Below, piece by piece: positions 4 through 28,013 of a stretch of 34,212 nt of DNA (position 1 is its first letter; every line of letters starts with the position of its first letter). Position numbers and translations under genes: made by a program. Source of the stretch: Planococcus sp. A6 (GTDB lineage: Bacteria; Bacillota; Bacilli; Bacillales_A; Planococcaceae); contig NZ_JAPEHT010000024.1 of NCBI RefSeq assembly GCF_028823615.1, positions 1 through 34,212 on the forward strand, given 5' to 3'. The notes beneath the pieces are model-generated. The model was not told the DNA's origin, made no database searches, and worked only from the letters and a program-made list of their open reading frames with translations.

Positions 4-1731
4 TTATTTGGCGACCCAATGGCCGGCTGATATTTCTACGAGCTGCGAGTTCAGCAAATTATACGGGTCGTCATCGGTCCGTTCCGCCATTAGGATGCGT
101 TTTTTCTGTGATTCGATTTCGGGGTCTGGGATCGGTATTGCCGACAGCAACGATTTCGTATAGGCATGTTGGGGGTTGGAATAAAGTTCTTCGCTGTCTG
201 CGAGCTCAACGATTTTTCCGCCATACATGACGGCGACGCGGTCGCTGATATGTTTGACCATCGACAAGTCGTGTGCGATGAACAAATAGGTCAAGCCGAA
301 GCGCTGCTGCAGATCTTCCAATAATTCCACGATTTGTGCCTGAATCGACACGTCGAGCGCGGACAGCGGTTCGTCGCAGACGATGAACTTCGGTTTGACA
401 GCGAGAGCGCGGGCGATGCCGATGCGCTGGCGCTGGCCGCCGGAGAATTCGTGCGGGTAGCGGAAGGCATGGGACTTGTCGAGCCCGACCAGTTCGAGCA
501 GTTCCTCGACCCTCGCTTTGCGCGCTGTTTTATTGGGGCTGAGCTTATGGAGATCCAGCGCCTGGCCGATAATATCCAGCACTTTCATCCGCGGATTGAG
601 CGATGAATACGGATCCTGGAAAATCATCTGCATGTGGCGGCGCATCGTTTTCATTTCTTTTTTCGACAAGCGGTTGACCGACATGCCTTCATACAGCACT
701 TGGCCATCCGTCGGTTCGTGAAGGCGCAGTATGGCGCGCCCGGTCGTTGATTTGCCGGAGCCCGACTCGCCGACAAGGCCGAGCGTTTCGCCCGGGCGGA
801 TAAAGAACGAGATGTCATCTACTGCTTTCACCGTGTTGCCTTTGCCCATATCGAAATGCTGCTTTAATGCTTTTACTTCCAGTAAAGGTTCGTTCGGGTT
901 GGCCACTGGCTGCAGCGGCTGCCGTTTCGGTTTTTTCTTTTCATCAAGGTGTGGCAAGGCGTTTAACAATTTTTGTGTATATGGATGTTTCGGGTTTGCG
1001 AAAATTTCTTCCGTCGTGCCCGTTTCGACGATTTCGCCTTGCTTCATGACGGCGACTCGGTCGCACATCCCGGCGACGACGCCGAGATCATGGGTGATGA
1101 GGATGATCGATGTGCCCATACGCTGTTGGATGTCTCTCATCAAGTTTAGAATTTGCGCTTGGATCGTCACGTCGAGCGCTGTCGTCGGTTCATCGGCAAT
1201 AAGCAAAGTCGGCTCGCAGGCAATAGCGATGGCAATCATCACCCGCTGGCGCATGCCGCCTGAAAATTCATGGGGGTATTGATGAAACCGCGTGTTACCG
1301 CCGCGTATGCCCACCAGTTTCAATATCTCCACCGCTTGCTTTTCGGCTTCTGCTGGGGACATGTTTTGATGCTTGATCAAGCTTTCTGCGATCTGCTGAC
1401 CAATTGAAAGGGTTGGGTTCAGCGAAGTCATCGGATCCTGAAAAATCATGCCGATGTCACGGCCGCGCACCGCTTCCATTTCTTTTTCGGTTTTATGGGC
1501 CAAGTTTTCGCCAAGGAAAGTGACGGTGCCTTGTTTGATGTATGCGGGGGGCGAAGGCAATAAACGCATGATCGAGCGGGCGGTGACGCTTTTGCCGCTG
1601 CCGGATTCCCCGACAATGCCGAGTGTCTCGCCTTTTACCAAGTCGAAGCTGATGCCACGGACAGCGTCGACTTCTCGGTCGTTGGTTTGAAAAGCGACAT
1701 GTAAATCGGATACTTCTAAAATCTTTTCCAT
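4..1731 (-). CDS. Two-domain (DppD-DppF fused) peptide/nickel-type ABC importer ATPase
   Basis: A 575-residue protein that should power import through the permeases encoded divergently from 1876. Two complete nucleotide-binding domains are seen. The first has Walker A GESGSGKS near residue 41, signature FSGGMRQRV and Walker [13 protein letters not shown]. The second has Walker [10 protein letters not shown], signature FSGGQRQRI and Walker [13 protein letters not shown]. Fusion of the two ATPases of an Opp/Dpp importer into one chain is known from GsiA-type systems. The Cys-rich C-terminal motif seen in the separate ATPases at 21-23 kb is absent. I chose the ATG at 1731 (MEKILEV) over a GTG three codons upstream because AGGTG lies six bases before it. 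The gene lies alone on the minus strand and ends just inside the window. Family assignment is certain; the substrate is unknown. Confidence 0.93.
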
Positions 1732-1792
1732 TTTCAGCACCTACTATCTATGTATGTGAATGGTTTGAACATTTTTAAGGAAAAATATCCAA

Positions 1793-3334: not shown

Positions 3335-4846
3335 ATGACTTTGAATAAGGAAATGAACAAAACAACCAATAATCGATTGCTGAAAATGTCCTCTGAATAC
3401 AAACAAGCGAGTTTCACTACCATTATTTCCTTCTTATTGACTCTTGTGTTGGCGCTCAATAGTTTCGGTTTCGGTACACAAGCGGCCAAGCCCGCGGTAC
3501 TAGCTGTGACGATCGCCTATGCGGCATTCACTGTGCTGCAGTTGTGGATCACACGACGCATCAGGCACGACGTCTTGACGGCGGACACGCTGCAGAAATC
3601 GACGCGCCGCTTTGGCTGGGTATTGTTGTTGAGCGGATTGACCGCCAATTTCTTCATGGTCAGCTTTGCCTTCAATTTGATCAAAACGAAAAAGACGCCT
3701 GAATACGTCTTTGCTGTGTATATGGTCATGGTTCAATTGTTCATCGTCGCCGTGTCTGCGTTGAACTTGTTCAAGCCGTATGTGGCGGATTTGTTTCCGC
3801 TCGGCATGCTCGTGCTGCTTTCGGTGGCATTCTTTTACCTCATCGTACTCGTGTTGATGGCGCGGTTTGTAGATGAGCATGCTGCGGACAAACGGCTGAT
3901 ATGGATTGCTATTCCGTTGATTTTGACGGCAGCGACGGGGAACTTATTTGCGCTGCTGCTCAGTGTCAGCTTGCTGCTGAAAATCCGCAGACAAAAGCAG
4001 CCCGGCATCAGCCAATGGAATCTCATCTGGACCAAAATCACCCGCAATACAACCGCCATGCTCGGCATGTTTTTCATCGTTTTTGTATTCGCCATTTCGG
4101 TCAGCAGTTATTTGACCTTCGATTACGATTTGGCTATTGCCAATAATTTTGCGGTGCTGCTGCAGCCCCCGAGCTTGGCGTATCCACTCGGAACCGATGA
4201 TTTCGGGCGGGATATGTTTTCACGGATTGTCTTTGGTGCCCGCATTTCCTTGATTGTCGGTGTGCTGTCGACAGCCATTCCGTTCATTGTTGGCGGGATG
4301 CTCGGTGCGCTGTCCGGGTATTACGGCAGAAGAACCGACAACGTCATCATGCGTTTGCTCGATATTCTTTACGCCGTGCCGGGGATCTTGTTGGCGATTG
4401 CCATCATTGCAGCGTTTGGCGCCAATACGGTGAACTTAATCATCGCATTGAGTGTCGGAGCGATTCCGACCTATGCCCGGACGATGCGCGCCAATGTTTT
4501 GATGGTGTCGAATTTGGAATACGTCGATTCGGCACGCGCACTCGGTTCTGGGGACATGGAGATTCTGTTCAAGCACATTGTGCCGAATTCATTGGCCCCG
4601 ATGATCGTGAAAGCGACATTGACCATCGGCGGTGCTGTCATTGCGACCAGCAGCTTGAGTTATTTGGGGCTGGGCGTCGAACCACATATTCCGGAATGGG
4701 GAAATATCTTGAAAATCGGCAGTACCTATCTTGAGTCTCACTCGTATTTAGCGATTTTCCCGGGGCTCGCCATTATCGCGCTAGTGTTATCGTTTAATTT
4801 CTTGGGAGATGGCTTGCGGGATGCGCTCGATCCGAAAATGGATTGA
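3335..4846 (+). CDS. DppC-type ABC importer permease with multi-spanning N-terminal extension
   Basis: A 503-residue membrane protein whose C-terminal 285 residues are a DppC/OppC permease. Visible landmarks are PLGTDDFGRDMFSRIVFGAR, the coupling loop around LEYVDSARALGSGDMEILFKH, and the C-terminal GDGLRDALDPKMD that closes most DppC proteins. The first 215 or so residues are additional and hold about six hydrophobic segments (near 26-45, 52-72, 93-113, 122-143, 150-173 and 186-210), so the protein probably has about twelve spans instead of six. DppC proteins are normally about 300 residues. The start has a moderate ribosome binding site (GCAGGTG, seven bases away). It is the second gene of the operon and pairs with the DppB-type permease to form the channel. 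Confidence 0.91.
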   Translation: MTLNKEMNKTTNNRLLKMSSEYKQASFTTIISFLLTLVLALNSFGFGTQAAKPAVLAVTIAYAAFTVLQLWITRRIRHDVLTADTLQKSTRRFGWVLLLSGLTANFFMVSFAFNLIKTKKTPEYVFAVYMVMVQLFIVAVSALNLFKPYVADLFPLGMLVLLSVAFFYLIVLVLMARFVDEHAADKRLIWIAIPLILTAATGNLFALLLSVSLLLKIRRQKQPGISQWNLIWTKITRNTTAMLGMFFIVFVFAISVSSYLTFDYDLAIANNFAVLLQPPSLAYPLGTDDFGRDMFSRIVFGARISLIVGVLSTAIPFIVGGMLGALSGYYGRRTDNVIMRLLDILYAVPGILLAIAIIAAFGANTVNLIIALSVGAIPTYARTMRANVLMVSNLEYVDSARALGSGDMEILFKHIVPNSLAPMIVKATLTIGGAVIATSSLSYLGLGVEPHIPEWGNILKIGSTYLESHSYLAIFPGLAIIALVLSFNFLGDGLRDALDPKMD

Positions 4847-4878
4847 CTACATATAAAACAACATTAGGAGGAATTGGA

Positions 4879-6690
4879 ATGAAAAAAACTATCGTGCCCG
4901 CATTGCTGGCTTTGGCATTGGTGCTGTCTGGTTGCATCAACACAAAATCGGACGTCTCAGAAGACACCGCAACTGATGGCGTATCAAATGGCGACAAGCC
5001 AGTCATCGAAATTCTCAGCATGAGCTCGAATGAAACGGACGTCAACATCGTGCGCGACCAGCTGACTAGAAACGGCTTTGACGTGGAGTTGAACCTCCAA
5101 CCAGACTACGGTAGTTTTACGGCACAAAAAGATGCCGGCAATTTTGACGTAGCGGTGTCGAGCTGGACGACGGTCACTGGTAATCCGGACTATGCGGTGC
5201 GCGCGCTCTTTAAATCGGACGGCGCCAACAGCATTATGGCCGATGAGGAAATCGACGAATTGATTGACCTGGCCAGCACGCAAGCACCAGAAGAGCATGC
5301 GGCTACTTATCAAGAATTGGAGCAATTGCTCGTGCTTGACCGCGCTTATATTGCCCCGCTTTATATTTCGTATAAAACTCAAGGCTTCAACAAAGACGTC
5401 TTGAAAGAAGACTCGGTCCGTCTGTCCAAATCCCGTGCACTTGCTTGGGAGCCGATTGATTTTGTCGATGAATCCAAACGCGAAAGTGATCCGTTTATCG
5501 TGTCGCAAGCGATCTCCTCGCTGACTTCACTGGATCCAATCAAAGGCAATGACGGATCGATCAATCAATTGAATACGAACATGTACGTGCGTTTGGTCAA
5601 CTTGACGGATGACGACGAACTGACGGCTGAAGCTTCGCTGTCCCATGCTTTCGCCATCGCGGAAGGCAACTCGGACTATTACTTCGTGCTGCGCGATGAC
5701 ATCAATTTTGCGGCAATCGAAGAAGATCAGGCGATTGATACTGGTGAACGTGTCGGAGCGGACGATGTAGTCTTCTCGCTAGACCGCGCTTCCAACCCGG
5801 ATTCTGTGCCGGATCACCGCACATACAGCTTGCATGAGCATATCGATTCGACAGAAGTGGTGACTGATATAGCGACACTGGAGTCGGCAGTCACAGCAGC
5901 GGACGACACAACTGTACTGGAGGCATTGGAAGCGGAGTTGGATACAGATATTGCAGAGCTTGTGGAAGAGAAAATGGACGCTGATAACGCGGCAGGCAAA
6001 TACCAGGTCGTGAAAATGACTACAACCGAACCGTTCCCGCAAGTATTGAATTATTTGGCGCACCAATCAGCTGGGATTGTGTCGAAGAAACAAGTGGAAA
6101 GAATCAACACGTATGATGTAGAGTCATATGATGTGAATACCGACGTTGCTTACGGCGACCAAAATACCGTAACTGAAGGGTCTAGCTATGATAACCACCT
6201 GTACGCAAGCGGACCGTATATTTTGTCGAAGAAAAACGACTACGAGGCGACGTTCCTGAAAAACCCGGCCTATATGGCGGATACGGAAAATGCTGCGAAA
6301 ATCTCAAATGTGACGGTACGTTTTATCGCTGATCCCGACAGCACTTTGTCGGCCTTGCGAAACGGTGAAATCCATTTGTATTACGGCATTCCGGAAACAA
6401 AATACGACGTTGTGGAAGAAGATTCGAAATTGGCTTTGCAGTCGATGGAAAGCAACGGCGTCAGCTATATGCTGTTTAACACAGAAGGGCGAGAAGTGGC
6501 GGAAAGTGAAGAATTGCGCAAAGCTGTGCTGTACTCGATCGATCAAGAAGAATTCATCAATTATTACCAAGGCAATAAAATCAAAGCTGTCTCGACAGTC
6601 AGCCCGTTGGTAGACACGGGGAATGAACTCGTTGCCGATCCGGCAAAAGTCGAAGAGTTTTTGGCTAATTACCAAAATAGCAAAGAATAG
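4879..6690 (+). CDS. Lipoprotein, family 5 substrate-binding protein in apparent circularly permuted order
   Basis: A 603-residue lipoprotein with signal peptide and lipobox LSGC (Cys at 19), the solute receptor of the adjacent importer. The start at 4879 follows a perfect AGGAGG; a longer reading from 4843 would overlap the permease stop and lacks such a site. The order of parts is unusual. Residues of about 40-190 resemble the C-terminal part of a family 5 binding protein: IVRDQLTRNGFDVELNL, FDVAVSSWTTVTGNPDYA, then the ELIDLA...YQELEQLL...YIAPLYISY series. Residues from about 205 on resemble the normal N-terminal part (SLTSLDPIKGNDGSINQLN, GADDVVFSLDRASNP) and middle (YASGPYILSKKNDYEATFLKNP), and the chain stops at DPAKVEEFLANY, just where the missing C-terminal part would begin. 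A terminator follows. The ligand is unknown. Confidence 0.9.
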   Translation: MKKTIVPALLALALVLSGCINTKSDVSEDTATDGVSNGDKPVIEILSMSSNETDVNIVRDQLTRNGFDVELNLQPDYGSFTAQKDAGNFDVAVSSWTTVTGNPDYAVRALFKSDGANSIMADEEIDELIDLASTQAPEEHAATYQELEQLLVLDRAYIAPLYISYKTQGFNKDVLKEDSVRLSKSRALAWEPIDFVDESKRESDPFIVSQAISSLTSLDPIKGNDGSINQLNTNMYVRLVNLTDDDELTAEASLSHAFAIAEGNSDYYFVLRDDINFAAIEEDQAIDTGERVGADDVVFSLDRASNPDSVPDHRTYSLHEHIDSTEVVTDIATLESAVTAADDTTVLEALEAELDTDIAELVEEKMDADNAAGKYQVVKMTTTEPFPQVLNYLAHQSAGIVSKKQVERINTYDVESYDVNTDVAYGDQNTVTEGSSYDNHLYASGPYILSKKNDYEATFLKNPAYMADTENAAKISNVTVRFIADPDSTLSALRNGEIHLYYGIPETKYDVVEEDSKLALQSMESNGVSYMLFNTEGREVAESEELRKAVLYSIDQEEFINYYQGNKIKAVSTVSPLVDTGNELVADPAKVEEFLANYQNSKE

Positions 6691-10644: not shown

Positions 10645-10688
10645 AAGTCATTAAGGTGCTTTATGGCATAACGGAGGGATGGGAGAGA

Positions 10689-12203
10689 ATGATTGATTTG
10701 CTTTTAGTGCACGGGACGACTATCACCATGGATAAGGAAAGAAGAATCATCCATGACGGGGCAGTGGCCATACATCAAGGAAAGATATTGGATGTGGGAC
10801 TGGCTAAGGACTTAAAGATGGAATACGAAGCGGCACAAACAATTGACTGTAAGCATCACTGTATATTACCTGGGCTCATCGATGTTCATGGACATGGCGG
10901 CCATTCCATGTTTAAAACGATTGCCATGGAAAACTTGGAACAGTGGATGCCTATCATGACCAATACATACAACCATTTTGTGACCGATGATTTTTGGTAT
11001 TACGAAGGAAAATTATCGGGGCTAGAAAGGTTGAAAGCGGGAATCACTACTGGCGTTTCAGTGATTGGGTCGACTCCCAGAGCAGATGATCCCATCTTTG
11101 CATTGAATCACGCCAAAGCCTATAACGAAGTCGGCGTCCGCAATATCGTCTGTACGGGGCCTGCAAATCCTGCATGGCCAAAACTGTATAGCAGGTGGAA
11201 AAACGGCAAAAGAATAACGAGAGAAATCGAATATGAAGAGGTCCTAAAAGGGGCAGAAGCGGTAATAGAAGCTTTGGATCATGCAAATGACGATCGGACA
11301 CGGGCATTTATCACCCCTTTTGTTATCGTCACTTCAATCGAAGGTTCTGGCCCGACACCGCCATCCAGATTACATCAGCTGACAGAACATGATAGATACC
11401 AAGCCCGTAAAATAAGGGAGATTGCAAAAAAGTATAAAACAAGAATTCATTCAGATGCTTTTGGCGGGATGGTTCATATGGCCATCCAGGATAAGGATTA
11501 TGCGTTATTGGGGCCGGACGTACACCTGCAACACTGCCGGGGCATTTCTTTCGACGAAGTGAAAATCCTGGCTGAAACAGGTACCAAGGTCAGCACCAGC
11601 CCAAGCGTCACGCAAATGAGTGCTAGGACCCCGATTGTTGAATTGATGGAACTTGGGGCGACAGTAGCTATTTCCACAGATGGAACCTCCCCTTCCACAA
11701 GTTTTGACATGTTTCAGGCGATGAGAAAAACCCAGCTAGTTCATCAAGCTGCCATGCGCGACGAACATTATTTGCCGCCCGGGAAACTATTGGAAATGGT
11801 CACCATAGACGCCGCTAGATGTATTGGATGGGATGATGAAATCGGCTCGATTGAAATCGGAAAAAAAGCGGATATCATCACAGTCAATTTGAAACAAGCA
11901 CATCTCACTCCTGAAACTATGCATGTCCATAGATTGGTCTATCAAGCAGTAGGAAGTGATGTGAATCACGTGATTGTAGATGGAAAGGTATTGATGAGTG
12001 AACGGAGAGTGTCAACTGTTGACGAAAATCGAATAATTGAAGAAGCGAATGCAGAAGCTTTGGAAACCATCGAACGTGCGGGGTTAGCTAAGTATATGGC
12101 GCCAACAAAGTATTTTTGGGGATCGACGCGGTCTTATGTTGACGAGAAAAGGTTTGATGAAAACGATTATTTATTCACTATTACGAAGGAGGAGCAGCTA
12201 TGA
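10689..12203 (+). CDS. ATZ/TRZ-like metal-dependent amidohydrolase
   Basis: A 504-residue amidohydrolase with the two-part composite fold typical of ATZ/TRZ, guanine deaminase and imidazolonepropionase relatives. Metal-binding signatures are visible: LPGLIDVHGHGGH (His67, His69), a later His in TRIHSDAFGG, another in VHLQHCRG, and an Asp in VAISTDGTSPS. The C-terminal IGSIEIGKKADIITVNL belongs to the beta-sandwich that closes this fold. It should hydrolyse a C-N bond of a cyclic or amide substrate, by deamination or ring opening, in the cytoplasm. The ATG at 10689 was chosen because GGAGGG and GGGAGAG precede it; a longer frame starts at 10656. Its stop overlaps the next gene by four bases, so both enzymes are coupled. 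The exact substrate cannot be read. Confidence 0.85.
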   Translation: MIDLLLVHGTTITMDKERRIIHDGAVAIHQGKILDVGLAKDLKMEYEAAQTIDCKHHCILPGLIDVHGHGGHSMFKTIAMENLEQWMPIMTNTYNHFVTDDFWYYEGKLSGLERLKAGITTGVSVIGSTPRADDPIFALNHAKAYNEVGVRNIVCTGPANPAWPKLYSRWKNGKRITREIEYEEVLKGAEAVIEALDHANDDRTRAFITPFVIVTSIEGSGPTPPSRLHQLTEHDRYQARKIREIAKKYKTRIHSDAFGGMVHMAIQDKDYALLGPDVHLQHCRGISFDEVKILAETGTKVSTSPSVTQMSARTPIVELMELGATVAISTDGTSPSTSFDMFQAMRKTQLVHQAAMRDEHYLPPGKLLEMVTIDAARCIGWDDEIGSIEIGKKADIITVNLKQAHLTPETMHVHRLVYQAVGSDVNHVIVDGKVLMSERRVSTVDENRIIEEANAEALETIERAGLAKYMAPTKYFWGSTRSYVDEKRFDENDYLFTITKEEQL

Positions 12204-13684
12204 AGACAAAACTCAAAGGACACTATGTAATAGGTTTTAACGGGAAAGATCATGTTTTATTAAAAGATGCAGAAGTGGTGTTTGAAGGCTCCGACATTAT
12301 TTATGTCGGAAAGGAATACGAAACACCTGTTGATGAAACAATTGAATGCGGAAATGCCGTGATAAGCCCTGGGTTTATCGACTTGAATGCGTTGGGAGAT
12401 ATCGACCACGATATCCTTCATATTGAAGCAGGTGAAGAAAGGTCGAAAAACCTCTTATGGTCAGAAGAATATATGAAGAACGGGCCTGAGGAAGTGATGA
12501 CTGAAGAAGAAGAGGCCTTTAAATCCTTATACGCATACACACAATTGATATTGAACGGCGTAACAACAGCCATGCCTATAACTTCCGTATTCTATAAAAA
12601 ATGGGCGGAGACTTATGGGGAATTGGCGGCAGCAGCACAGCATGCAGGGAATTTAGGGCTGAGAATATATTTGGGTCCAAGTTATCAATCGGGCATGCGC
12701 GTTGTTCAACCAGACGGTAGCATTCATGTGGAGTGGGACGAAGAACAAGGAAAACAGGGGCTAAAGCGCGCAATCGAATTTGTGGAACAGTTTGACGGGG
12801 CCTATGACGGTCTGGTGAAGGGGATGCTTGCGCCTGAACGCATAGAATGCCAAACAGAAGAAAGCTTGAAACAAACGAAAGCCTTTAGCGAAAAATTAGG
12901 CGTTCCTATAAAGCTCCATGCAGCTCAGGGTAGTTTCGAATACCATACCATGATTGAACGGCACGGCATGACCCCTATTCAATATCTTGACAGCATAGGA
13001 TTTTTAGGTCCTAATACTGGCATTCCACATGCGAATTTTATCGCTGGCTACAGTGAGACGGAAGCTGGGCAAGGGGACGATATAAAAATATTAAATGAAA
13101 CTAACACCACCGTCATTCACTGTCCAGTAATTATGGGAAGGCGTGGAAGCGGGCTCGAATCTTTTGCGAGGTACAAACGCTCAGAAGTGAATTTAGCCAT
13201 CGGCACTGACACGTTTCCTCCCGATATCTTTCAAAATATACGAGCCGGCAGCATGATTTCCAGGTTTCATGAAAAAGCTGTTGAAGATTCGTCATTCGCC
13301 GATTTTTTCCGCGCTGCGACTCTAGGTGGAGCGAACTTCTTGGGGAGGGATGACATTGGTAGGTTAGCGCCAGGAGCCAAAGCCGACATGATCGTTATTG
13401 ATTTAGATGGCTATCATATGGGCGTAAATGACGATCCGATTCGGACGATGATGATGAGTGGTTCGGGACAGGACATTAAACTCTCTATTATAAATGGAAA
13501 AATCGTCATGAAAGACAGAGTCATTCCTAATATTGATTTAAAGGAACTTCAACTTAAAAGCCAGGCTTATTTTGAAAAAATGAAAAATGGATATAGCAAG
13601 AGAGATTATCAGCAACTGGATAAGCAAGACCTATTTAAGACTTCATTTCCTCTAGTCGATTCTTTGAATATGATTTTTAAGTAA
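12200..13684 (+). CDS. ATZ/TRZ-like amidohydrolase lacking the first metal-binding HxH
   Basis: A 494-residue protein of the same superfamily as the upstream gene. Conserved blocks include IECGNAVISPGFIDL, VPIKLHAAQGSFEYH, GPNTGIPHANFIAGY, VIHCPVIMGRRGSG, VNLAIGTDTFPPD and IGRLAPGAKADMIVIDL, so the later metal-site His residues and the Asp remain. The usual first motif (PGFxxxHxH) reads PGFIDLNALGDIDHD: the two His positions are Asn63 and Leu65. Either the protein binds its metal differently (perhaps using His70), or it is a non-catalytic partner of the first enzyme, or it belongs to an amidohydrolase branch with this motif. The start ATG overlaps the preceding stop (ATGA) and GGAGGAG lies upstream. 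Translation coupling suggests a joint complex or pathway. Confidence 0.82.
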   Translation: MKTKLKGHYVIGFNGKDHVLLKDAEVVFEGSDIIYVGKEYETPVDETIECGNAVISPGFIDLNALGDIDHDILHIEAGEERSKNLLWSEEYMKNGPEEVMTEEEEAFKSLYAYTQLILNGVTTAMPITSVFYKKWAETYGELAAAAQHAGNLGLRIYLGPSYQSGMRVVQPDGSIHVEWDEEQGKQGLKRAIEFVEQFDGAYDGLVKGMLAPERIECQTEESLKQTKAFSEKLGVPIKLHAAQGSFEYHTMIERHGMTPIQYLDSIGFLGPNTGIPHANFIAGYSETEAGQGDDIKILNETNTTVIHCPVIMGRRGSGLESFARYKRSEVNLAIGTDTFPPDIFQNIRAGSMISRFHEKAVEDSSFADFFRAATLGGANFLGRDDIGRLAPGAKADMIVIDLDGYHMGVNDDPIRTMMMSGSGQDIKLSIINGKIVMKDRVIPNIDLKELQLKSQAYFEKMKNGYSKRDYQQLDKQDLFKTSFPLVDSLNMIFK

Positions 13685-13701
13685 AGATTGTGTAAAAGAT
13701 A

Positions 13702-13743
13702 GTAAAGAAATTGAAACTTAATTATCAGAATATTTCTTATAAT
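13702..13743 (+). promoter_or_regulatory. Promoter region of the first binding-protein gene
   Basis: A perfect TATAAT lies at 13738-13743 with no good -35 box (AACTTA or ACTTAA at the right distance). Upstream are GTAAAGAAA (13702-13710) and AATTATCAGAAT (13720-13731). Both words also occur upstream of the second binding-protein gene, at 25018-25026 and 24953-24964, which suggests a common activator such as the AraC-type response regulator encoded at 19417. Inferred. Confidence 0.4.
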
Positions 13744-13779
13744 TAATTCAACAAAATCGATACACAAGGGGGAAATAAG

Positions 13780-15328
13780 TTGAAAAATCTTCAAAGGATC
13801 AGAAATGGAATGGTTTTAGCTATTGTGATCATGTTTCTGGCAGGCTGCTGCAACCACAGAAGGGGGAGAAGCGAAAGCTGCGGGGGCTGAAGACACTTTG
13901 ATTATTGCCAGGTTGTCGGATGCTGAGAGTCTGGACCATCAGTTTATGTCCACGATCAATGCCGCAAGCGTGACCCATGGAAAAGTTTACGAGGGATTGG
14001 TCGGCCGTGATAAAAGCGCAGAACTTCAACCGCTGCTTGCAGAAAGCTGGGAGCAACTTGATGACACTACTTGGGAATTCAAGCTCCGTCAAGGCGTAAA
14101 GTTCCATGATGGTACTGAGTTTACAGCAGAAGCGGTAAAAGCAACTTTCGATCGCTTATTAGATCCGGAAGTCGGTTCTCCAAGAGCAGGTGTATTAGCG
14201 ATGGTTGAGGAGATAAAAATCATTGACGATCATACAGTTCAATTCCTATTGTCTGAGCCGTACTCCCCACTTCTTTCGATTCTAGCAAGCCATGAAGGCG
14301 GGATCATCAATCCGAAAGCAATCGAGGAATTCGGCGGAGATGATATTCAAAAACCGAATGGGACAGGGCCGTTCAAATTTGAATCATGGACTCCTGGGCA
14401 AGTAATCGTGTTAACTCGCAACGAAGAATATTGGGGAACGCCGGCGAAAGTCGGAAGAGTTGAATTCAAAGTTGTGCCCGAGGAAACCACCCGTACATCG
14501 ATGGTGGAGACTGGGGAAGCCCACATTGCTGAGCCGTTATCCATTTCCCAATTCGCTGCTGTAGATGCATCTCAAATTTCAGAAGTCTACCAAAGTGAAG
14601 GATTTGGAACAGAATACATTACATTTAACGTTGAAAAAGAACCTTTCGATGATGTGAAGGTAAGAAAAGCAGTAGCCCATGCCATCGAAATGGATGCTAT
14701 TCGAAAAGGTGTCTATAATAACATCGGCGGAGAAGCGAATTCTTTACTGGGCTCCAAAGTCTTCGGGTACCATGACGGTTTGGAAACCTACGAGTACAAT
14801 CTATCCGAGGCAAAGCGGCTACTTGCTGAAGCGGGGTATCCTGATGGCCTCGAGGTTAAGTTGACTACGATGGATAATAAGGAAAGAATCAGCTTAGCAG
14901 AAGTAGTGCAGTCGCAATTAAAAGGAATTGGAATCAAAGTGAATATTGAAGTGATGGAATACGGGACTTTTGTAGATACTACACATTCTGGCGATACAGA
15001 AATGATCATTACCAGCTGGAGAAACGCAACTGGAGACGCTGATTATAACCAATATAATTTGATGCATTCAAGTTCCAAGGGTGCTAATGGCAATACGTCT
15101 TTTTATGCTAACGCCGAAGTAGATGATCTGATTGAGCAAGCTCGCAAGGAATCGGATTCAGCAAAGCGTATTGAATTATATGCGAAAGCTCAAGACATTC
15201 AAATGGAAGAAGTGATTTACATTCCGGTAAGGGTTATAGAAAACGTAGCGGTGATGTCTAAAAATGTCAGCGGTTTTGGGATTAGCCCTTCTGGTTATTT
15301 GGAATTGAATAACGTCTCTATAAAATAA
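13780..15328 (+). pseudogene. Family 5 substrate-binding lipoprotein with a frameshift at the lipobox
   Basis: The body from 13898 is a normal family 5 binding protein: KVYEGLVGRDKSAELQPLLA, TWEFKLRQGVKFHDGTEFTA, GTGPFKFESWTPGQ, and a C-terminal IEVMEYGTFVDTTHSGDTE. It is a close relative of the protein at 25135. The signal peptide lies in another frame: a TTG at 13780, with AAGGGGG before it, starts MKNLQRIRNG and runs through AIVIMFLAGC to a stop after about 36 codons. The two frames meet in the repeat ctgctgc near 13845-13850. Removing one base there would give LAGC-ATTEGGEAKAAG, an ideal lipoprotein start. As written the mature protein is not exported. The lesion may be a real mutation, a sequencing indel, or, less likely, recoding. 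Confidence 0.85.
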
Positions 15329-15336
15329 TAAGGTGA

Positions 15337-15366
15337 AAAGGGATATCCGAGGAGGGTACCCTTTTT
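15337..15366 (+). terminator. Terminator between binding protein and CodA-like gene
   Basis: AAAAGGG and CCCTTTTTT enclose an inner ATCC/GGGT stem with a small internal loop. It would end or reduce transcription after the binding-protein gene. The downstream enzyme has its own AGGAGG but no obvious promoter. Confidence 0.65.
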
Positions 15367-15407
15367 TACTTGTAAGTCAATGAAGTTGAAAACTTAGGAG
15401 GTACAAA

Positions 15408-16622
15408 ATGTACATATTGAAGAATGTCTTATTGGAAACGGGCTATATCAAACAAGGGGAACGGGTCACTGCAACACAGACAGGAGTTTTTCATTTAAAG
15501 ATCGCTGAGGGTGTCATTACAGAAATACTGGATTCTGAAAGCCTAGTGCCGGAGGATATTAAAATGATTGATGGTAAGGGACTCCTTGTTTTACCTGCTT
15601 TTAAAGAAACCCATGTCCATCTTGATAAAACCTATATGGGGGAACCTTGGCGTGCGTGTGTACCGGCTTCTTCTGTCATCGAAAGAAGCACGATAGAAAA
15701 AGACATCCTTTCTACCATAGAATCCAGTACAGAACAAAGAGCAAAAAACTTATTGGATGTCCTCATTGCCAACGGATCGACTTCGGTCCGGACGCATGTC
15801 GATATCTATCCTGAGGCCGGATTGAAAAACTTAATAGGCGTTCAGGGCGCCTTGGCGGATTATGGAAATAAAGTCGACTCGGAAATTGTGGCTTTTGCCC
15901 AACATGGTCTGCTTCATGGAAATACCGCTAAATTGATGAGAGAAGCGGTGCGCAATGGAGCTGGGTTAGTGGGATCCGTAGACCCGGCAACGGTCGATTT
16001 GAATATCGAAGCATCACTTGTTGAATTGATGGATATAGCCGTTGAAGGCGGCGTTGAAATTGATTTGCATTTGCACGATCCAGGCCATCTTGGCGTATTT
16101 ACGATGAAGCGTTTAGCTGATTTGACGATAGAAGCTGGGTGGCAGGGAAAAGTAGCCATCAGTCACGCTTTTGGGTTGGGGGATGTCACGCAACCCGAAG
16201 CAAGAGCGGCCGCGGAGGTCTTGAAAGAAGCTGGAATATCGATTATTTCCAGTTTGCCTATCGGGAGAAACATTCCTCCCATCAGCCTGCTGGACGAGGT
16301 TGGAGTTCGCGTAGCGCTCGGGAACGATAATATCTATGATTCCTGGTGGCCGACGGGGAATGGCGATATCTTAGAGCGGTTGGGCAGATTATTGGAGATT
16401 AGCCGTTGGACCGATGAATTGTCCTTGTCCCAAGCTTTGCGATTCATTACTGATGGGGTGACCCCGTTAACTTTGGAGGGAGAGCGGGTATGGCCAATGC
16501 AGGGAGATTTGGCGAATTTTGTTCTAGTGGACGCCAAATGTGCAGCTGAAACCGTAGCCAGGCGGTCAAAACGGTCAGCTGTATTTCATAAAGGGGAAAT
16601 AGTAGGCGGAAAACTCGAATAA
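15408..16622 (+). CDS. CodA-like (cytosine-deaminase-like) amidohydrolase
   Basis: A 404-residue metal-dependent hydrolase resembling bacterial cytosine deaminase. LPAFKETHVHLDKT gives the HxH metal ligands (His69, His71). IVAFAQHGLL matches the IVAFPQEGIL segment of E. coli CodA, whose Gln contacts the base. VEIDLHLHDPGHLG holds the next metal His, VAISHAFGL the following His, and VALGNDNIYDSWWPTG the catalytic Asp. In E. coli CodA the segment is VHCDEID, with a Glu that shuttles protons; here the aligned residue is Asp. Deamination or amide hydrolysis of a pyrimidine-like or related heterocycle is likely, but cytosine itself is not assured. AGGAGG precedes the ATG. The gene follows the first binding-protein gene after a terminator and is convergent with the NCS1 permease gene. 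Confidence 0.86.
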   Translation: MYILKNVLLETGYIKQGERVTATQTGVFHLKIAEGVITEILDSESLVPEDIKMIDGKGLLVLPAFKETHVHLDKTYMGEPWRACVPASSVIERSTIEKDILSTIESSTEQRAKNLLDVLIANGSTSVRTHVDIYPEAGLKNLIGVQGALADYGNKVDSEIVAFAQHGLLHGNTAKLMREAVRNGAGLVGSVDPATVDLNIEASLVELMDIAVEGGVEIDLHLHDPGHLGVFTMKRLADLTIEAGWQGKVAISHAFGLGDVTQPEARAAAEVLKEAGISIISSLPIGRNIPPISLLDEVGVRVALGNDNIYDSWWPTGNGDILERLGRLLEISRWTDELSLSQALRFITDGVTPLTLEGERVWPMQGDLANFVLVDAKCAAETVARRSKRSAVFHKGEIVGGKLE

Positions 16623-16654
16623 AAAAGAGAGAATGATTTCATTCTCTCTTTTTT
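16621..16654. terminator. Bidirectional terminator with perfect 16-base stem
   Basis: AAAAAAGAGAGAATGA (16621-16636), two bases, then the exact complement at 16639-16654. It overlaps the stop of the CodA-like gene and the last codons of the convergent NCS1 gene, and serves both directions. Confidence 0.92.
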
Positions 16655-18090
16655 ATTCGGTTTTTTTCAGTGAAGATGGTTTGTATATAGTAAAAGCTTA
16701 CATATAAACATGCAGAAACCAGGATGCCCAAAAGTGATGAAGTGGTGTAAAACACTTCGAGCGCTGTTATTTTGCTTCCGAGCAGGCTAAGGCCGCCAGC
16801 GAGCAAGGTAGCCAATAAGGCGGGAACTTTGAAAGAAGCTATCGGATGCTTTCCAGGGATGCCATAAACGGCGTCCATATCGATTATTTTCTTAGAGATA
16901 AAATAATAATGTGTCAGCATAACCCCGATAACGGGACTTAGCAATGCTCCTACCATATTAAGGAACATGAAGATGCTCGTAGCATTCTCCATCAGTTTCC
17001 ACGGCAATAATATAACGCCCACTGTCGCTACTACAAATGCGCTTTTTTTGAAATTTAACTTATTTGGGAATAAAGAGGTTAATTGATTGGCTGCCGGAAT
17101 AACGTTGCCTACGATATTTACGGATAATGTAGCAAGAGCCAGTGTAGTCAGCGATAGGATAACAGCGAATACACTATCGAATTTATCGACCACTTCAAGT
17201 ACATTCCAGACCGGGACGCCAAACGCGATTTCAGAACCGATGATGATCGAGATGCTTGCTAAAGCAAACAATAGGTAAGTAGCTATAATCCCGGCAAATT
17301 GGCCGCGAGCCTGAGCTTGTTTAGACTGCGAATAACGCGTGATATCCGAAACGCTTAAAATCGGCGCTACCCACGTAGCAACAATAGCGGAGACGCAGGA
17401 AATCAATAGGAATAAATTTACGTCACCGTCACCTGACGGCTCAAAAGCTAAAATAGGGGTTATACCGCCTGCTAATTGGATTGACCATATCGACATTCCG
17501 CCAAATACTAGGAACACGAGCAAGGTTACGCTTTTCGTCAGCTTCCCCAGGGTATTGACGTCGGCAAAGATGAAAATGAGGTTGATCACCCAAAATAAGA
17601 GGAAAGACAGAAGGCTGGGCAAACTCAAGCCAAGAAATAGAAAGCCGCCGCCGAGTGTTAAATATGCAGGGAAGAAAGTTCCGATGAAAATCGAAACAGC
17701 AATACTGCCGGCATAGGTCTGGAGGCCGAACCACATAATTCCCGCTACGATTCCCCTGAAAAATCCCGGAACTACCGCACCTTTATCTCCGTAACTTGCC
17801 CTTAACAGGATGGAAAAGGGAATGCCGTATTTATTGCCCGCATGTCCATTGAGAACCAATAATAACGCTACTATCATGGCTGCACAGCATATCACCATAA
17901 ACACTTGTCCGGTCGAGAGGCCCAGTGCGAAAAAACCGCCTATAGTGACGTATGAAGGGATATTGTGTACAGAACCCATCCAAACAGAAAAATAATGGCT
18001 GAAACTCCACGTGCGGCTTTCGGAATTTGTTGGAAGTAAATCCCTGTTTATAAAAGGAAGTTGTTTTGGTTCATGATCAATTTGCGTCAT
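16639..18090 (-). CDS. NCS1 family nucleobase/hydantoin/allantoin-type permease
   Basis: A 483-residue membrane protein with about twelve transmembrane segments. The N-terminal block NRDLLPTNSESRTWSFSHYF, then SVWMGSVHNIPSYVTIGG, is the hallmark of the nucleobase:cation symporter-1 family (Mhp1, PucI, CodB, allantoin permeases), as is GIPFSILLRASYGDKGAVVP. These carriers import purines, pyrimidines, hydantoins or allantoin with Na+ or H+. This fits the amidohydrolases around it and is the strongest hint that the locus handles an N-heterocycle. GGAGG lies nine bases before the ATG. The gene overlaps the end of the SSS-type symporter gene by 14 bases and is the last gene of the minus-strand regulator/transport operon. 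Which ligand is carried cannot be told. Confidence 0.9.
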   Translation of the reverse strand: MTQIDHEPKQLPFINRDLLPTNSESRTWSFSHYFSVWMGSVHNIPSYVTIGGFFALGLSTGQVFMVICCAAMIVALLLVLNGHAGNKYGIPFSILLRASYGDKGAVVPGFFRGIVAGIMWFGLQTYAGSIAVSIFIGTFFPAYLTLGGGFLFLGLSLPSLLSFLLFWVINLIFIFADVNTLGKLTKSVTLLVFLVFGGMSIWSIQLAGGITPILAFEPSGDGDVNLFLLISCVSAIVATWVAPILSVSDITRYSQSKQAQARGQFAGIIATYLLFALASISIIIGSEIAFGVPVWNVLEVVDKFDSVFAVILSLTTLALATLSVNIVGNVIPAANQLTSLFPNKLNFKKSAFVVATVGVILLPWKLMENATSIFMFLNMVGALLSPVIGVMLTHYYFISKKIIDMDAVYGIPGKHPIASFKVPALLATLLAGGLSLLGSKITALEVFYTTSSLLGILVSACLYVSFYYIQTIFTEKNRIKKRE

Positions 18091-19420
18091 TTGGCTGGTC
18101 CTCCAATTCTATACGCGAGCGAAAATGATTTCCAAGAGTTTTTTTGATAATGAAAATCCCGATGACGATTCCCGAAAGTAAAAAGCTGGTCCATACCGAC
18201 TCGAAGTAAGTAAGAAAAGGGGAAGTCGCTAATCCAGCGATTATTCCAAACGATGATGAAAGAACCGGCGGCAATGTTTCTCTGCCATTAGTGAAAACGA
18301 TATAAAGAGTAGCGAAAATCATGGAGCTATAGATATTTCCGAAGAAAAATAACAATTGAATCGGATAAGGCGTCAGCAAGCTTGCTGCGAAAAGTAAAAC
18401 TGCGATCAACCCTAACGTAAAGATATTCTTGTATTTGAATTGTTGGTTGGTCGATAGATTCTTAAGTTCGCCCACAACATTTCGGATGAAAAGGGAGTTC
18501 AATGAATGCAGTTCAGAACTGGCGGCAGATAACACGGCAGCAAAACAGAATAGAACAAAAACGAAAATCAGTGCATTCGACTCCAGAATGTTGACCAACT
18601 CAAAAATAAGCGAATAAGGGGTGTCGAAGGGACGTCCCGAGATAGCCAATAAATAAAGTGATGTTATGGCAATGGGAATGGTAAACCAAATCAGCCCAGT
18701 CAGGATAAAGGTCATCTTCACTTTTTCTTTTTTAATGATAAATACTCTTTGCCACGTTGCGCGATCCGTTATCATTTGTCCAAAGAACACCAATAATCCC
18801 GTTGAAATAAACCAGAGCGACTCGTTATTCCTTGTAAACAACAAATAGGGATGGTAAAGCTGGATTCCTTCAAAGATGGGAGTAACGCCTTCTTGCATAT
18901 AAGAATAGACAGGAATGAGAATAATGGTTCCGAAAATCAAGATGACACTAATGCCAGCTAATTGATGGATGCGATATAATCCACCGACTCCGCCAATGAG
19001 GAAAAGAAAAAACAAGAAAAGAATCATGCCAATGAATAGCGGGAATGGAAATAAGATGTAAAGTAAGAGTCCTGCTCCCATTATCTGTATAAAAAGCGCG
19101 TAAATCCCCATGACGAAGAGAAGGGACATCATGTACCAATACCCGAATGGATTCAATTTTTGTTTTAATACATCACCAATTGTCATTTGACCTGTAAATG
19201 TATAGCTAATTTTACGAGCAACAAACCCAAAAAGAATTAAAGCGAGCCCACCCATGAAGGCATAGCCAATTCCCCCGATTAAGCCGTAGCGGATAAGGGT
19301 TTCAGGCGAAGAAAGAATGGTGTTTCCGGTAATCCATCTGGCTAGTAAACTGACGACGCCAAAGGCGATTCCCAGCTGGACAGCTCCTTGGATATAAAAT
19401 TCAAAACTTTTTTTCTTCAA
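18077..19420 (-). CDS. Sodium:solute symporter (SSS)-like membrane protein
   Basis: A 447-residue protein with about twelve to thirteen transmembrane segments. The segment GQMITDRATWQRVFIIKKEKVK matches the conserved loop of sodium/solute symporters of the SSS (SLC5) family, and FCFAAVLSAASSELHSLNSLFIRN matches their later conserved helix with small residues and Ser near the sodium site. Similarity is moderate, so the family call is likely rather than certain. The start is TTG at 19420, eight bases after AAAGGAG, and overlaps the response-regulator stop (TTGA). Tight coupling behind a kinase and regulator suggests either a regulated carrier for the inducing compound or a transporter that takes part in sensing. 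The end overlaps the NCS1 gene. Confidence 0.75.
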   Translation of the reverse strand: MKKKSFEFYIQGAVQLGIAFGVVSLLARWITGNTILSSPETLIRYGLIGGIGYAFMGGLALILFGFVARKISYTFTGQMTIGDVLKQKLNPFGYWYMMSLLFVMGIYALFIQIMGAGLLLYILFPFPLFIGMILFLFFLFLIGGVGGLYRIHQLAGISVILIFGTIILIPVYSYMQEGVTPIFEGIQLYHPYLLFTRNNESLWFISTGLLVFFGQMITDRATWQRVFIIKKEKVKMTFILTGLIWFTIPIAITSLYLLAISGRPFDTPYSLIFELVNILESNALIFVFVLFCFAAVLSAASSELHSLNSLFIRNVVGELKNLSTNQQFKYKNIFTLGLIAVLLFAASLLTPYPIQLLFFFGNIYSSMIFATLYIVFTNGRETLPPVLSSSFGIIAGLATSPFLTYFESVWTSFLLSGIVIGIFIIKKTLGNHFRSRIELEDQPNDAN

Positions 19421-20109
19421 TGACCGGTCTCCTTTAGCCTATAGTCTCGAGGCGATAATCCAGTTTCTTTTCGAAACATTTGGCTGAAATAATGTTGGCT
19501 ATTAAACCCGCATTTCTCGGAAATCTCTCCAATACTGGCTTCGGGCCGATCTGTTAACATTTTCTTAGCCATCATCAAGCGATAATTATTCACATATTCA
19601 GAAAAGCCAATTCCTACTTCTTCTTGGAATTTCCGGCTTAAATAAGCTGGATTAATGTGTATTTTCTCGGCTAAATAGTTCAGTGTGATTTTTTCTTCGT
19701 AATTTTGGTGAATCAATTTAATGGACTGCTGGATTTGATGCGAATAATGAGTAAGCTGTGAGTAGTTATTCAATACTTTGATAAGATCTTCTTCGATTAC
19801 GGGCTTGGTGATATAATCTACAACCCCTAATTTTATGGCGGTGTGAGCATATTCGAAACTTTGATAGGCCGTTACCATTACGATATCGGCATTTGAAATG
19901 TCTTTCATTTCTTTTGCTAACTCAAGTCCGGTTTTACCGGGCAATTGAATATCCAAGAAAGCTAGAAAAATCTCTTCATGATTTAAGATTTTCATTGCTT
20001 GAGAAGCATCTTGGGCTTTGAATATATTCCATCTCGGAAAATTCCGGTTAATCAAATACTCCATTTGCTCCAATTCGAGTGATTCGTCATCGACAAGTAG
20101 GATGTTCAC
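19417..20109 (-). CDS. Response regulator with AraC-type DNA-binding domain (YesN-like)
   Basis: A 230-residue two-component regulator. The receiver domain has NILLVDDES (acidic pocket), FLAFLDIQLPGKTGL (phospho-acceptor Asp), VMVTAYQ (Thr) and DYITKPV (Lys). The C-terminal 100 residues are an AraC/XylS double helix-turn-helix: ITLNYLAEKIHINPAYLSRKF and ASIGEISEKCGFNSQHYFSQ, ending in the typical FRKETGLSPRDYR. I prefer the GTG at 20109 (MNILLVDDE) because AAAGGAG abuts the earlier GTG at 20121 with no spacing. It sits between the kinase and the SSS-like gene with overlapping ends, so it forms one operon. It probably activates promoters of the surrounding uptake and hydrolase genes. Confidence 0.94.
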   Translation of the reverse strand: MNILLVDDESLELEQMEYLINRNFPRWNIFKAQDASQAMKILNHEEIFLAFLDIQLPGKTGLELAKEMKDISNADIVMVTAYQSFEYAHTAIKLGVVDYITKPVIEEDLIKVLNNYSQLTHYSHQIQQSIKLIHQNYEEKITLNYLAEKIHINPAYLSRKFQEEVGIGFSEYVNNYRLMMAKKMLTDRPEASIGEISEKCGFNSQHYFSQMFRKETGLSPRDYRLKETGH

Positions 20110-20117
20110 GGGAAGAT

Positions 20118-20873
20118 TCACTCCTTTAAATCTTTTTTGTAGACAAGTGGAAACATTACTTTTACTGTCGTGTCATCGACAGAATGTATTATTCCGACTG
20201 ACTTTTCTTCGTCAGGAAATAGCAACTCCAATCTTTTGGAGATATTGGAAAGGCCTATTCCCTTGTCTGATGAAATCTGCACCCCTTCATTGGGAAGACT
20301 GTTACTGACAACAATGCAAATCGTAGAATCTTCTCGTGAGACGGTTATTTTCAGTTCAGCCTTCCCGGCTTTTTTTTCGAAGGAATGTTTGAATGCATTT
20401 TCTACAAGTGTTTGAATCAGGAATGGCAAGGTAATTGCTTGACGAACGGAGGAATCGGCAATGATTTGATAATTTAGCCGTTCCCGGAACCGGATTTTTT
20501 GGATATCCAGATAAGAAATCACATACGATAATTCTTCGTCGATAGTAATGAATGTAGTATTGGTTTTGTATTTATGTTTCAATAGCCTCGAAAATGTTTC
20601 TATTGAATGAATCAGTTCCTGTTTTCGGTCAAGTCGGGCGAGGCTTAGGATGGAGTTCATGGTATTAAAAAAGAAGTGAGGCTGTATTTCTTGGTTCAGC
20701 TGATTATATAAGGCTTTTTGCAGTTCACTTTCCAACGCAATTTCATTCTTTTCTTTTTCGATTAAATCAATCCGTTTTTCAAAAACAAATAAGAATAATA
20801 ATGTGAAGGCACCTACCAGCGGAGCAAGTACACATATCATGATATATAGAGAAAAAGCTTCGATCGTCATCAT
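20118..20873 (-). CDS. LytS/YesM-type sensor histidine kinase with a minimal sensor
   Basis: A 251-residue kinase. A single hydrophobic segment near residues 6-30 is followed by a short coiled region and the phospho-acceptor block LNQEIQPHFFFNTMNSILSL, typical of the His_kinase (LytS/YesM) family. The N box is LVENAFKHSFEK and the G box GIGLSNISKRLELL. There is no extracellular domain, PAS, HAMP or multi-span sensor module, so it can hardly recognise an external ligand alone. AAAGGAG lies eleven bases before the ATG at 20873; a GTG at 20882 is only two bases from it. It is the first gene of the operon kinase - regulator - SSS-like - NCS1 and probably phosphorylates the AraC-type regulator encoded next. 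Confidence 0.92.
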   Translation of the reverse strand: MMTIEAFSLYIMICVLAPLVGAFTLLFLFVFEKRIDLIEKEKNEIALESELQKALYNQLNQEIQPHFFFNTMNSILSLARLDRKQELIHSIETFSRLLKHKYKTNTTFITIDEELSYVISYLDIQKIRFRERLNYQIIADSSVRQAITLPFLIQTLVENAFKHSFEKKAGKAELKITVSREDSTICIVVSNSLPNEGVQISSDKGIGLSNISKRLELLFPDEEKSVGIIHSVDDTTVKVMFPLVYKKDLKE

Positions 20874-20934
20874 CTCATGCACTGCTCCTTGCTTTACTGA
20901 GTATGGGGAGTGGTGGGGCGAATTAATGAAAGTA

Positions 20935-20991
20935 GAGCATTCTGGTCTCGGGTTCTGTCACCTAAACCTAACCCGAAAATCAGAAATGCTC
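20935..20991. repeat. Imperfect 57-base inverted repeat between ATPase and kinase genes
   Basis: Outer arms GAGCATTCTG (20935-20944) and CAGAAATGCTC (20981-20991), inner arms TCGGGTT (20948-20954) and AACCCGA (20970-20976), with a 15-base loop. No U-run follows the hairpin in the minus direction, so it is not a simple terminator. It may structure the 5' leader of the kinase mRNA or separate it from the upstream transport operon. Confidence 0.5.
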
Positions 20992-21038
20992 AATAGTTAT
21001 ATCACATTATTTTATTAGCTCGGCAAACGGTATTTTCA

Positions 21039-21992
21039 TTACGATAATTCTTCTGCATAATGGCAACTGACAAAATGATTTTCGCGCAGCTCCCGTAATG
21101 CGGGTTCTTCAGTTTTGCAGCGATCCGTAGCGAATGGGCAGCGCGTATGAAAACGGCATCCTGTTGGTGGATTGATAGGAGATGGAACATCGCCCTTCAG
21201 TAAAATCCGCTCAATTTTTTCAGAGGGGTTCGGCACTGGAATTGAAGACAGAAGAGCCTTTGTATAAGGGTGCAAGGGCACTTCGAATAGATCCTTTTTA
21301 TCGGAAATCTCTACGATTTTTCCTAAATACATAACCATAACTCGATCGGAAATATAACGAACAACGCTCAAATCATGGGAAATAAATAAAAAAGTAAGCT
21401 GAAATTGTTTTTGCAACTTTTTCAATAGGTTCAGGATTTGGGCTTGAATAGAAACATCAACTACCGCCAGTGCACGGGCGATTCCAATGCGTTGACGCTG
21501 CCCTCCACTGAATTCGTGGGGATAGCGATCTAAAGCTTCAGCTGGTAGTCCTACCAAGTTCAATAATTCAATCATCCGCTCCCGCTGCAACGGTTTTGCT
21601 ACAGATTTTTGGATAGTCATGGCTTCGCCTAAAATTTGCTTGATTTTCTGTCTCGGATTAAGCGAAGCAAAAGGATCTTGGAAAATGACCTGTAAATCGC
21701 CACGCAAGTCGCGCATTTCTTTCTTGCTCAAGTCTACTAGGTTCTTTCCGGCATAGAGAACTTTTCCATCTGTCGGTTCATCAAGTTTCAAGATAGAGCG
21801 GCCAGTTGTTGATTTCCCACAACCTGATTCTCCCACTATGCTGAGTGTTTCCCCTTCGTTGACTACAAAAGAGATGTCATCGACTGCTTTGACATATGCT
21901 TTCGGTTGGAAGATGGAATCCTTTTTTACAGTAAAGTATTGTTTTAAGCCGGAAACTTCCAACAATATCTTTTTTTCCTCAGTAATCTTCAT
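21039..21992 (-). CDS. OppF/DppF-type ABC ATPase lacking Walker B
   Basis: A 317-residue ATPase of the peptide-importer type. Walker A (GESGCGKST, near 55-63), Q-loop ([12 protein letters not shown]), signature ([17 protein letters not shown]) and the switch His ([12 protein letters not shown]) are present, as is the Cys-containing C-terminal motif CRFHTRCPF. Directly after ARALAV the chain continues with VDVSIQAQ. In relatives, including the second domain of the protein at 4-1731, about 14 residues ([14 protein letters not shown] in that protein) lie here, with the Walker B Asp, the catalytic Glu and the D-loop. The gap is in frame (net about 39 bases) near 21462. The protein should therefore bind but not properly hydrolyse ATP. 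Its start overlaps the stop of the partner ATPase gene (ATGA). Deletion, functional specialisation and assembly error are the alternatives. Confidence 0.88.
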
Positions 21993-23011: not shown

Positions 23012-23027
23012 CTTCGAGCACCGCCTT

Positions 23028-23948: not shown

Positions 23949-23972
23949 TGAAAGAACCTCCTTTGTTAAAAA

Positions 23973-26706: not shown

Positions 26707-26718
26707 GATGTGTAAAAA

Positions 26719-26745: not shown

Positions 26746-26766
26746 TATTTCAATGGAGGGATGAAA

Positions 26767-27993: not shown

Positions 27994-28013
27994 AGAGTTT
28001 AGGAGGAGATGTA

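Follow-up and report, generated by a model that had tools for sequence, protein, structure and literature searches.

Judging from its sequence, P0001, the protein encoded at positions 4879-6690 of the window (the whole stretch of 34,212 nucleotides from Planococcus sp. A6 that was analysed), is a family 5 (cluster C) ABC-importer binding protein whose chain is circularly permuted. The part that completes the chain in ordinary family 5 proteins stands first, behind the lipoprotein signal, and is followed by the usual N-terminal and middle parts (Table 1). The original prediction, made from the sequence of the window, had proposed a permutation at the level of the gene in which the fold is preserved while the termini shift, and it is borne out both by the order of the parts in all 40 aligned homologues and by the rotation of profile alignments described below.

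Table 1. Coordinates of the gene for P0001, its parts and its neighbours in the window
Feature	Position	Strand	Remark
Fused OppD-OppF type ATPase (GisA-like), divergent	4..1740	-	Two ABC_tran and two oligo_HPY stretches; conserved neighbour
OppB-type permease (GisB-like), 481 aa	1876..3321	+	PF00528, PF19300; conserved neighbour
OppB-type N-terminal extension: two additional hydrophobic segments separated by a loop of ~98 aa	1876..2385	+	Hydropathy, alignment
OppC-type permease (GisC-like), 503 aa	3335..4846	+	PF00528, PF12911; conserved neighbour
OppC-type N-terminal extension: about six extra hydrophobic segments	3335..4000	+	Hydropathy; structure model
Ribosome-binding site AGGAGG	4866..4871	+	7 bases 5' of ATG; read from sequence
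Circularly permuted family 5 substrate-binding lipoprotein (cpSBP, GisD-like), P0001	4879..6690	+	603 aa
Signal peptide and lipobox (LSGC), Cys19	4879..4935	+	Cys19 invariant in 40/40 aligned
Residues 42-195, C-terminal part of ordinary family 5 proteins	5002..5463	+	ORD_C profile E 5.9e-15 at 56-174; hhalign
Seam residues 196-204, former C-terminus to former mature N-terminus	5464..5490	+	hhalign and alignment
Residues 205-598, usual N-terminal and middle parts, ending at the usual start of the C-terminal part	5491..6672	+	ORD_N profile E 1.8e-39 at 208-579; hhalign
First insert, ~45 aa absent from the ordinary profile, residues ~332-376	5872..6006	+	Gap in hhalign alignment
Second insert, ~23 aa absent from the ordinary profile, residues ~410-432	6106..6174	+	Gap in hhalign alignment
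Terminator: hairpin (ggcagcccct/aggggctgcc) and T-run just 3' of the stop codon	6705..6735	+	Read from sequence

Results

Order of the parts in P0001

P0001 matched the Pfam model SBP_bac_5 at 129.1 bits (cut-off 32.4) and thus belongs to family 5 (cluster C); the best stretch, residues 262-596, covered profile positions 14-274 of 368 only. In the two ordinary relatives in the window, the match to the same model begins at position 1 or 2 and ends at 365 or 366. In BLAST comparisons within the genome, residues 55-160 of P0001 matched the late part (26272-26601) and residues 442-580 the middle (25735-26145) of the ordinary binding-protein gene at 25135-26706. Moreover, residues 31-160 aligned to 355-488 of PDB entry 5u4o and residues 433-566 to 190-320.

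We built half-profile HMMs, ORD_C and ORD_N, from 32 ordinary family 5 rows (31 distinct, L192 and P0003 being one ORF of the window). In each of 40 distinct homologues of P0001 (40/40), the C-half came before the N-half, so that P0001 and its homologues depart from the canonical order of family 5 proteins; a search for homologues with the same order had been proposed as a check at the outset. As the 40 proteins are mutually related, this demonstrates a conserved order and not 40 separate events. None of 200 shuffles of P0001 matched the half-profiles, and the normal order was recovered in 32/32 ordinary rows, which are the same rows that were used to build the HMMs.

In a scan with hhalign, the unrotated ordinary profile scored 255.4 against P0001 over 299 columns. 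Rotation of this profile at residues 360-366 of P0002 gave a score of 355.7 (355.5 at 366), which was the sole peak of the scan with all other rotations tried scoring lower; in an ordinary-versus-ordinary control the peak was at zero rotation. The rotated alignment took up to 459 of the 479 columns once each, in a single run over P0001 residues 42-598, and the fold is accordingly complete. The boundaries originally suggested, residues 40-190 for the C-terminal part and 195-205 for the seam, were right to within a few residues. No gap interrupted the alignment across the seam, where the C-terminal tail of ordinary proteins meets their first strand, and, thus, the linker, if any, is short. Doubling the sequences of the ordinary rows increased the best-domain score with a HMMER profile of the permuted family in only 1 of the 30 rows scored (of 32); in our view, this test failed to reveal the permutation because HMMER probably splits the alignment at the two inserts.

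An AlphaFold2 model of P0001 computed with the 40 homologues had a pLDDT of 85.1 and a pTM of 0.80; values below 50 were confined to residues 1-37, and 36 residues were at 50-70. With this model as the query, the 50 Foldseek matches listed, of 100 at E <= 0.001, were all family 5 or cluster C by name. The query-normalised TM-scores of these 50 were 0.30-0.46, which fits an order-bound aligner that can use only part of a permuted chain. The names of these 50 matches also speak against a permuted sugar-binding protein of cluster Bc, for which a cluster B (type I) fold would be expected.

A lipobox-like pattern was present in 115 of the 116 ORFs longer than 560 aa and, together with the invariant Cys19, it provides the lipoprotein signal expected in a Gram-positive host. 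At the 3' end, the ORF is closed by its stop codon and the hairpin terminator, so that no C-terminal part lies downstream; a degenerate second C-terminal part after residue 603, which the original prediction had named as a way in which it could fail, is absent.

A conserved four-gene module with extended permeases

The order ATPase (on the opposite strand), OppB, OppC, permuted protein was found in 113 of 119 loci with flanks, or in 111 of 117 distinct loci when two locus pairs that share one binding-protein gene each are counted once. Two of the exceptions (L066 and L073) have the full order on inspection, a gene having been dropped by the ORF filter. In L067, split ATPases are located 3' of the permeases; L153 is without an ATPase in the stretch, L112 is cut near a contig end, and L068 is a remnant.

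The permeases of the module in the window have 481 and 503 aa, compared with 306 and 300 aa for the ordinary permeases in the window, and a simple scan detected 8 and 10 hydrophobic segments in them. Neither the OppB-type nor the OppC-type extension had a Pfam match over the cut-off, the best weak ones being DUF4168 (E 0.0083) and DUF6814 (E 0.00014). The model of the OppC-type extension (pLDDT 86.6, pTM 0.71; the other four models 59.7-76.6) had no PDB match at E <= 0.001. We used the OppC-type extension alone as a query, scoring up to 7 candidates per genome, and found it in 34 of the 398 genomes of the class sample; all 34 also have the permuted protein, on the same contig and within 2.9 kb. 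The sole permuted match without the extension in this sample was the remnant in genome G583. Within this genome sample, the OppC-type extension was thus never seen apart from the permuted protein.

Some permeases were shorter, i.e. three of the OppB type (<440 aa) and seven of the OppC type (<470 aa), with those of L063-L065 (390-403 aa) among them, and some of these may perhaps result from the choice of ORF start or from a frameshift. In the genomes of L063-L065, only the later part of the OppC-type extension was matched. Among the 14 largest clusters of flanking genes listed, no family was present in more than 20 of the 119 loci, and these loci are mostly of the Paenibacillus type; two genus-spanning clusters, in 9 and 8 loci, resemble sensor and regulator genes, as judged by their first residues. 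Rfam at gathering thresholds, applied to six sources, gave a single match, to a SAM riboswitch, and this lies far from the module, at the end of L085.

Probable relation to glutathione import

Three loci, L063-L065, encode permuted proteins that are 38-41% identical to the window protein and that also have the C-part before the N-part. Their genes are ordered gisA (on the opposite strand), gisB, gisC, cpSBP and ggt, with ggt right after the permuted gene (detected with Pfam in L063 and with BLAST in the other two). Compared with a named Staphylococcus aureus record, the ATPase of L063 is 78% identical and its permeases 76% and 71%; the permuted protein is 80% identical over 207 residues (18-224), the rest was not found in the stretch compared. 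In the S. aureus 'plasmid' record L202 (NZ_CP077929.1 16228-28845), the gis region forms an inverted repeat and the binding-protein gene reaches only ~residue 224 on both arms, so that the record appears to contain a misassembled piece of the chromosome.

In S. aureus, the locus with the order gisABCD-ggt was reported to promote uptake of oxidised glutathione (GSSG) and growth on glutathione (GSH) and GSSG, and transposon insertions in each of the five genes to impair growth on GSH and GSSG (PMC10355420). In the same report, nine TM regions are predicted for GisB and GisC, GisD is a predicted binding lipoprotein that was tested genetically, and yliABCD is given as the former name of the GsiABCD genes (PMC10355420). 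Gis has further been described as a high-affinity system for GSH, with growth on GSSG solely Gis-dependent (PMC12510641). On the basis of the S. aureus record, the gene order and the published description, the window protein can be regarded as probably GisD-like.

The best NCBIfam model for P0001 was GsiB, at 58.5 of 594 bits far below its cut-off, and the second and third matches were binding proteins of nickel transporters. YliB (1uqw) was the best Foldseek match and glutathione-bound GbpA (3m8u) the fourth; 3m8u was also second in a PDB profile search, and the top PDB sequence match was 5u4o, whose molecule name gives no ligand. GsiB and GbpA have the same cluster C fold with the ordinary chain order and are periplasmic proteins of Gram-negative bacteria. 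The matches to them may mean no more than that P0001 is, in general, close to the Dpp/Gsi branch.

DppA of Escherichia coli (1dpp, 8z1z) likewise has the same fold, in the ordinary order, and can be aligned to P0001 after rotation. Residues R383 and D436 of DppA pair with the carboxyl and amino groups of the dipeptide (PMC12136057). They are not kept in the permuted family, in which the two positions are a gap and Val in 40/40 homologues, and a DppA-like dipeptide binder was therefore ruled out; Val at the D436 position is also present in 9 of the 32 ordinary rows.

In total, the ligand of P0001 is most likely glutathione or a similar compound (GSH, GSSG or a related gamma-glutamyl or cysteinyl peptide), as suggested by relatives of ~40% identity. 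That only the staphylococcal branch is fitted to glutathione, and that P0001 takes up a longer peptide, an opine or a metal chelate instead, has in our estimate a chance not far short of even. The low identity to L063-L065 and the nickel-transporter matches speak for such a ligand, as does the position of ggt, which adjoins the module in no more than 3 of the 119 loci (L063-L065). Against it, the best matches by profile and by fold include glutathione binders, and the module order and partners are common to gisABCD-type loci. At the level of the genome, ggt does not track the module: 8 of the 20 ggt-less genomes listed (there are 41 more) carry the module, and G000, the genome of the window, has one ggt match, on another contig than the module.

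Origin and distribution

In a tree with 33 ordinary rows, 11 permuted representatives formed one clade on a long stem (100/100 support), and a single origin of the permuted clade is therefore likely. An alternative to permutation in the strict sense is domain replacement, i.e. the fusion of a block from another family 5 gene upstream of the N-terminal part, with loss of the original C-terminal part. A quick tree of the old C-terminal part is in line with this, because in it, but not in the tree of the remaining sequence, the clade falls close to two ordinary rows with long branches, and the authors of the report on TpMglB-2 voiced a similar doubt about their protein (PMC4990184). However, joins with long rows were flagged as possibly false, and the old C-terminal part is short and its tree quick. 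Moreover, both blocks form one clade each on similar stems (1.54 and 1.76 changes per column), and in the hhalign alignment they tile the fold once, with no overlap. We consider domain replacement unlikely; its outcome would equally be a permuted protein.

An unrelated domain added as residues 42-195, combined with simple loss of the C-terminal part, was a possibility already raised with the original prediction; the only hint of it is that the best Pfam stretch stops at position 274. It is extremely improbable, because this block matches the ordinary C-terminal part by profile (40/40), by BLAST and in the PDB profile search, and because rotation lifts the alignment score by 100.

The circularly permuted gene recurs across genomes. 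In the window's genus, 5 of 46 genomes had a match at E <= 1e-30, and in its family 108 of 261 at E <= 1e-25, of which 107 were near full length and one (G179) was a fragment only; in two genomes (G175 and G165) the full-length match contains one stop. The search at the level of the order involved the same 261 genomes and gave the same tally. The class sample, in which as in the phylum sample up to 3 candidates per genome were scored, gave matches in 35 of 398 genomes from four families, including a 3' remnant (G583) with neither of the two permease genes, OppB and OppC, in its stretch. In the phylum sample, 4 of 398 genomes had matches, all in the window's class. Finally, a pattern scan of a named genome collection with the 40-row alignment returned 358 stretches, of which 330 were confirmed as relatives. 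The best 80 of these 330 came from Planomicrobium, Psychrobacillus, Sporosarcina, Cytobacillus, Niallia, Lederbergia, Neobacillus, Rossellomorea, Paenibacillus, Bacillus and others, and the closest to the window protein among these 80 was from Planomicrobium (81%). Thus, despite an assembly of 265 contigs, two remnants among the relatives (G179 and G583) and two others that carry a stop, the near full-length matches in the family and the same-length relatives in Paenibacillus, Cytobacillus, Sporosarcina and others leave hardly any room for an assembly or annotation artefact or a pseudogene.

The remnants of the permuted gene are located at 8025-8672 in L068 (from G583) and at 7998-8180 in L055 (from G179); neither stretch has OppB or OppC, which indicates that the module is lost now and then. 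L203 (NZ_OK052578.1), a 362 kb Metabacillus plasmid predicted to be non-mobilizable, carries a four-gene module, with the gene at 78% identity. Relatives of the gene with 69% and 68% identity are present in L133 (titled Arthrobacter) and L138 (titled Bacillus subtilis), respectively; the match coordinates in L133 are those of G166, which the genome search placed in the window's family, and at least the Arthrobacter title is probably wrong.

Discussion

We are fairly confident in an account in which a self-contained, GisABCD-like ABC importer of type I has P0001 as its substrate-binding lipoprotein, with a permuted fold, a lipid anchor on the C-lobe, extended permeases and a glutathione-type ligand. 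The former termini would be joined by the seam of at most about ten residues, and the new termini would lie in a C-lobe loop between the helix DPxKAxxLL and the next strand. Because all parts of the fold are present once, the protein should close on its ligand like an ordinary Venus-flytrap protein. It would then hand the ligand to two permeases with extra N-terminal membrane segments, and transport would be powered by the fused two-domain ATPase.

The chain of P0001 ends after the helix DPAKVEEFL and starts at the strand that normally comes next, and the alignment places this cut at about residue 370 of the DppA precursor. Given the domain limits of DppA, the loop at this site would be in domain III, in the C-lobe, and the ordinary termini in domain I. 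From this mapping, the lipid anchor of P0001 appears to have moved to the C-lobe; since bacterial lipidation is N-terminal, the membrane anchor would hold this lobe and not the other one. A further step, which we put forward tentatively and consider rather doubtful, is that the architecture co-evolved, i.e. that the tether on the C-lobe fixes the orientation of the binding protein against permeases that have gained membrane segments, about six in one and two with an external loop in the other, and that this tethered delivery spread in Bacilli and is represented by GisD in S. aureus.

The module resembles GisABCD-Ggt of S. aureus in its gene order (gisA on the opposite strand, then gisB, gisC and gisD), fused ATPase and lipoprotein binding protein, and the permeases of both appear to have more than six TM helices, with nine predicted in the published system (PMC10355420) and 8 and 10 hydrophobic segments in the scan of the window. 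The relatives L063-L065, which are near the S. aureus record, belong to the permuted family. The module differs from GisABCD-Ggt in that 116 of the 119 loci have no adjoining ggt and in that the window protein is only ~40% identical to the proteins of L063-L065. No word beginning with 'permut' is present in the main text of PMC10355420 or in the other Gis paper. A survey limited to Ggt-bearing genomes described complete Gis homologues only in a cluster related to S. aureus, and nearly complete ones in a few bacilli (PMC10355420). The transporter module is common in Bacilli and nearly always without an adjoining ggt, suggesting that GisABCD-like modules of this kind are much more widespread than in that ggt-first survey.

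A natural permutation of a lipid-anchored binding protein of an ABC importer has likewise been described for TpMglB-2 (Tp0684) of Treponema pallidum, classified as 'Type Ic / Cluster Bc' (PMC4990184). In TpMglB-2, however, the fold is that of a cluster B sugar-binding protein and the N lobe is rearranged, which makes it an independent event; its authors suggest that the permutation is linked to membrane tethering (PMC4990184). The original prediction knew of no described family of this type. For family 5 this still stands, as we found no report of a permuted protein in the open-access literature by title or abstract; more generally it does not, as the natural permutation in cluster B and GisD itself are published (PMC4990184, PMC10355420).

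Family 5 binding proteins are usually treated as fixed in order, and the best Pfam stretch in P0001 takes in a portion of the family model only. The widespread permuted clade with extended permeases of its own is a natural experiment on the placement of termini and lipid anchor, and it bears on which lobe must stay free when the binding protein docks. A further suggestion is that models of GisD, with which S. aureus scavenges glutathione, should not assume the order of the chain in ordinary family 5 proteins.

Other features of the window

Downstream of the permuted gene, at 29259-30458 (+), the window encodes a 399 aa protein with weak TPR and other NCBIfam matches, all below cut-offs. A 447 aa ORF at 18077-19420 (-) without a Pfam or NCBIfam match at E <= 0.001 adjoins a response-regulator/AraC-like gene (19417-20121) and a 254 aa ORF (20118-20882) without an NCBIfam match. 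The region 10656-29240 forms an island that includes the two ordinary family 5 binding proteins together with a second Opp-type transporter (21039-24875), five amidohydrolase- or deaminase-like genes, and a nucleobase-permease gene (16639-18090) with an allantoin permease as its best NCBIfam match, under the cut-off. The island looks like a system for the uptake and breakdown of a nitrogen heterocycle.
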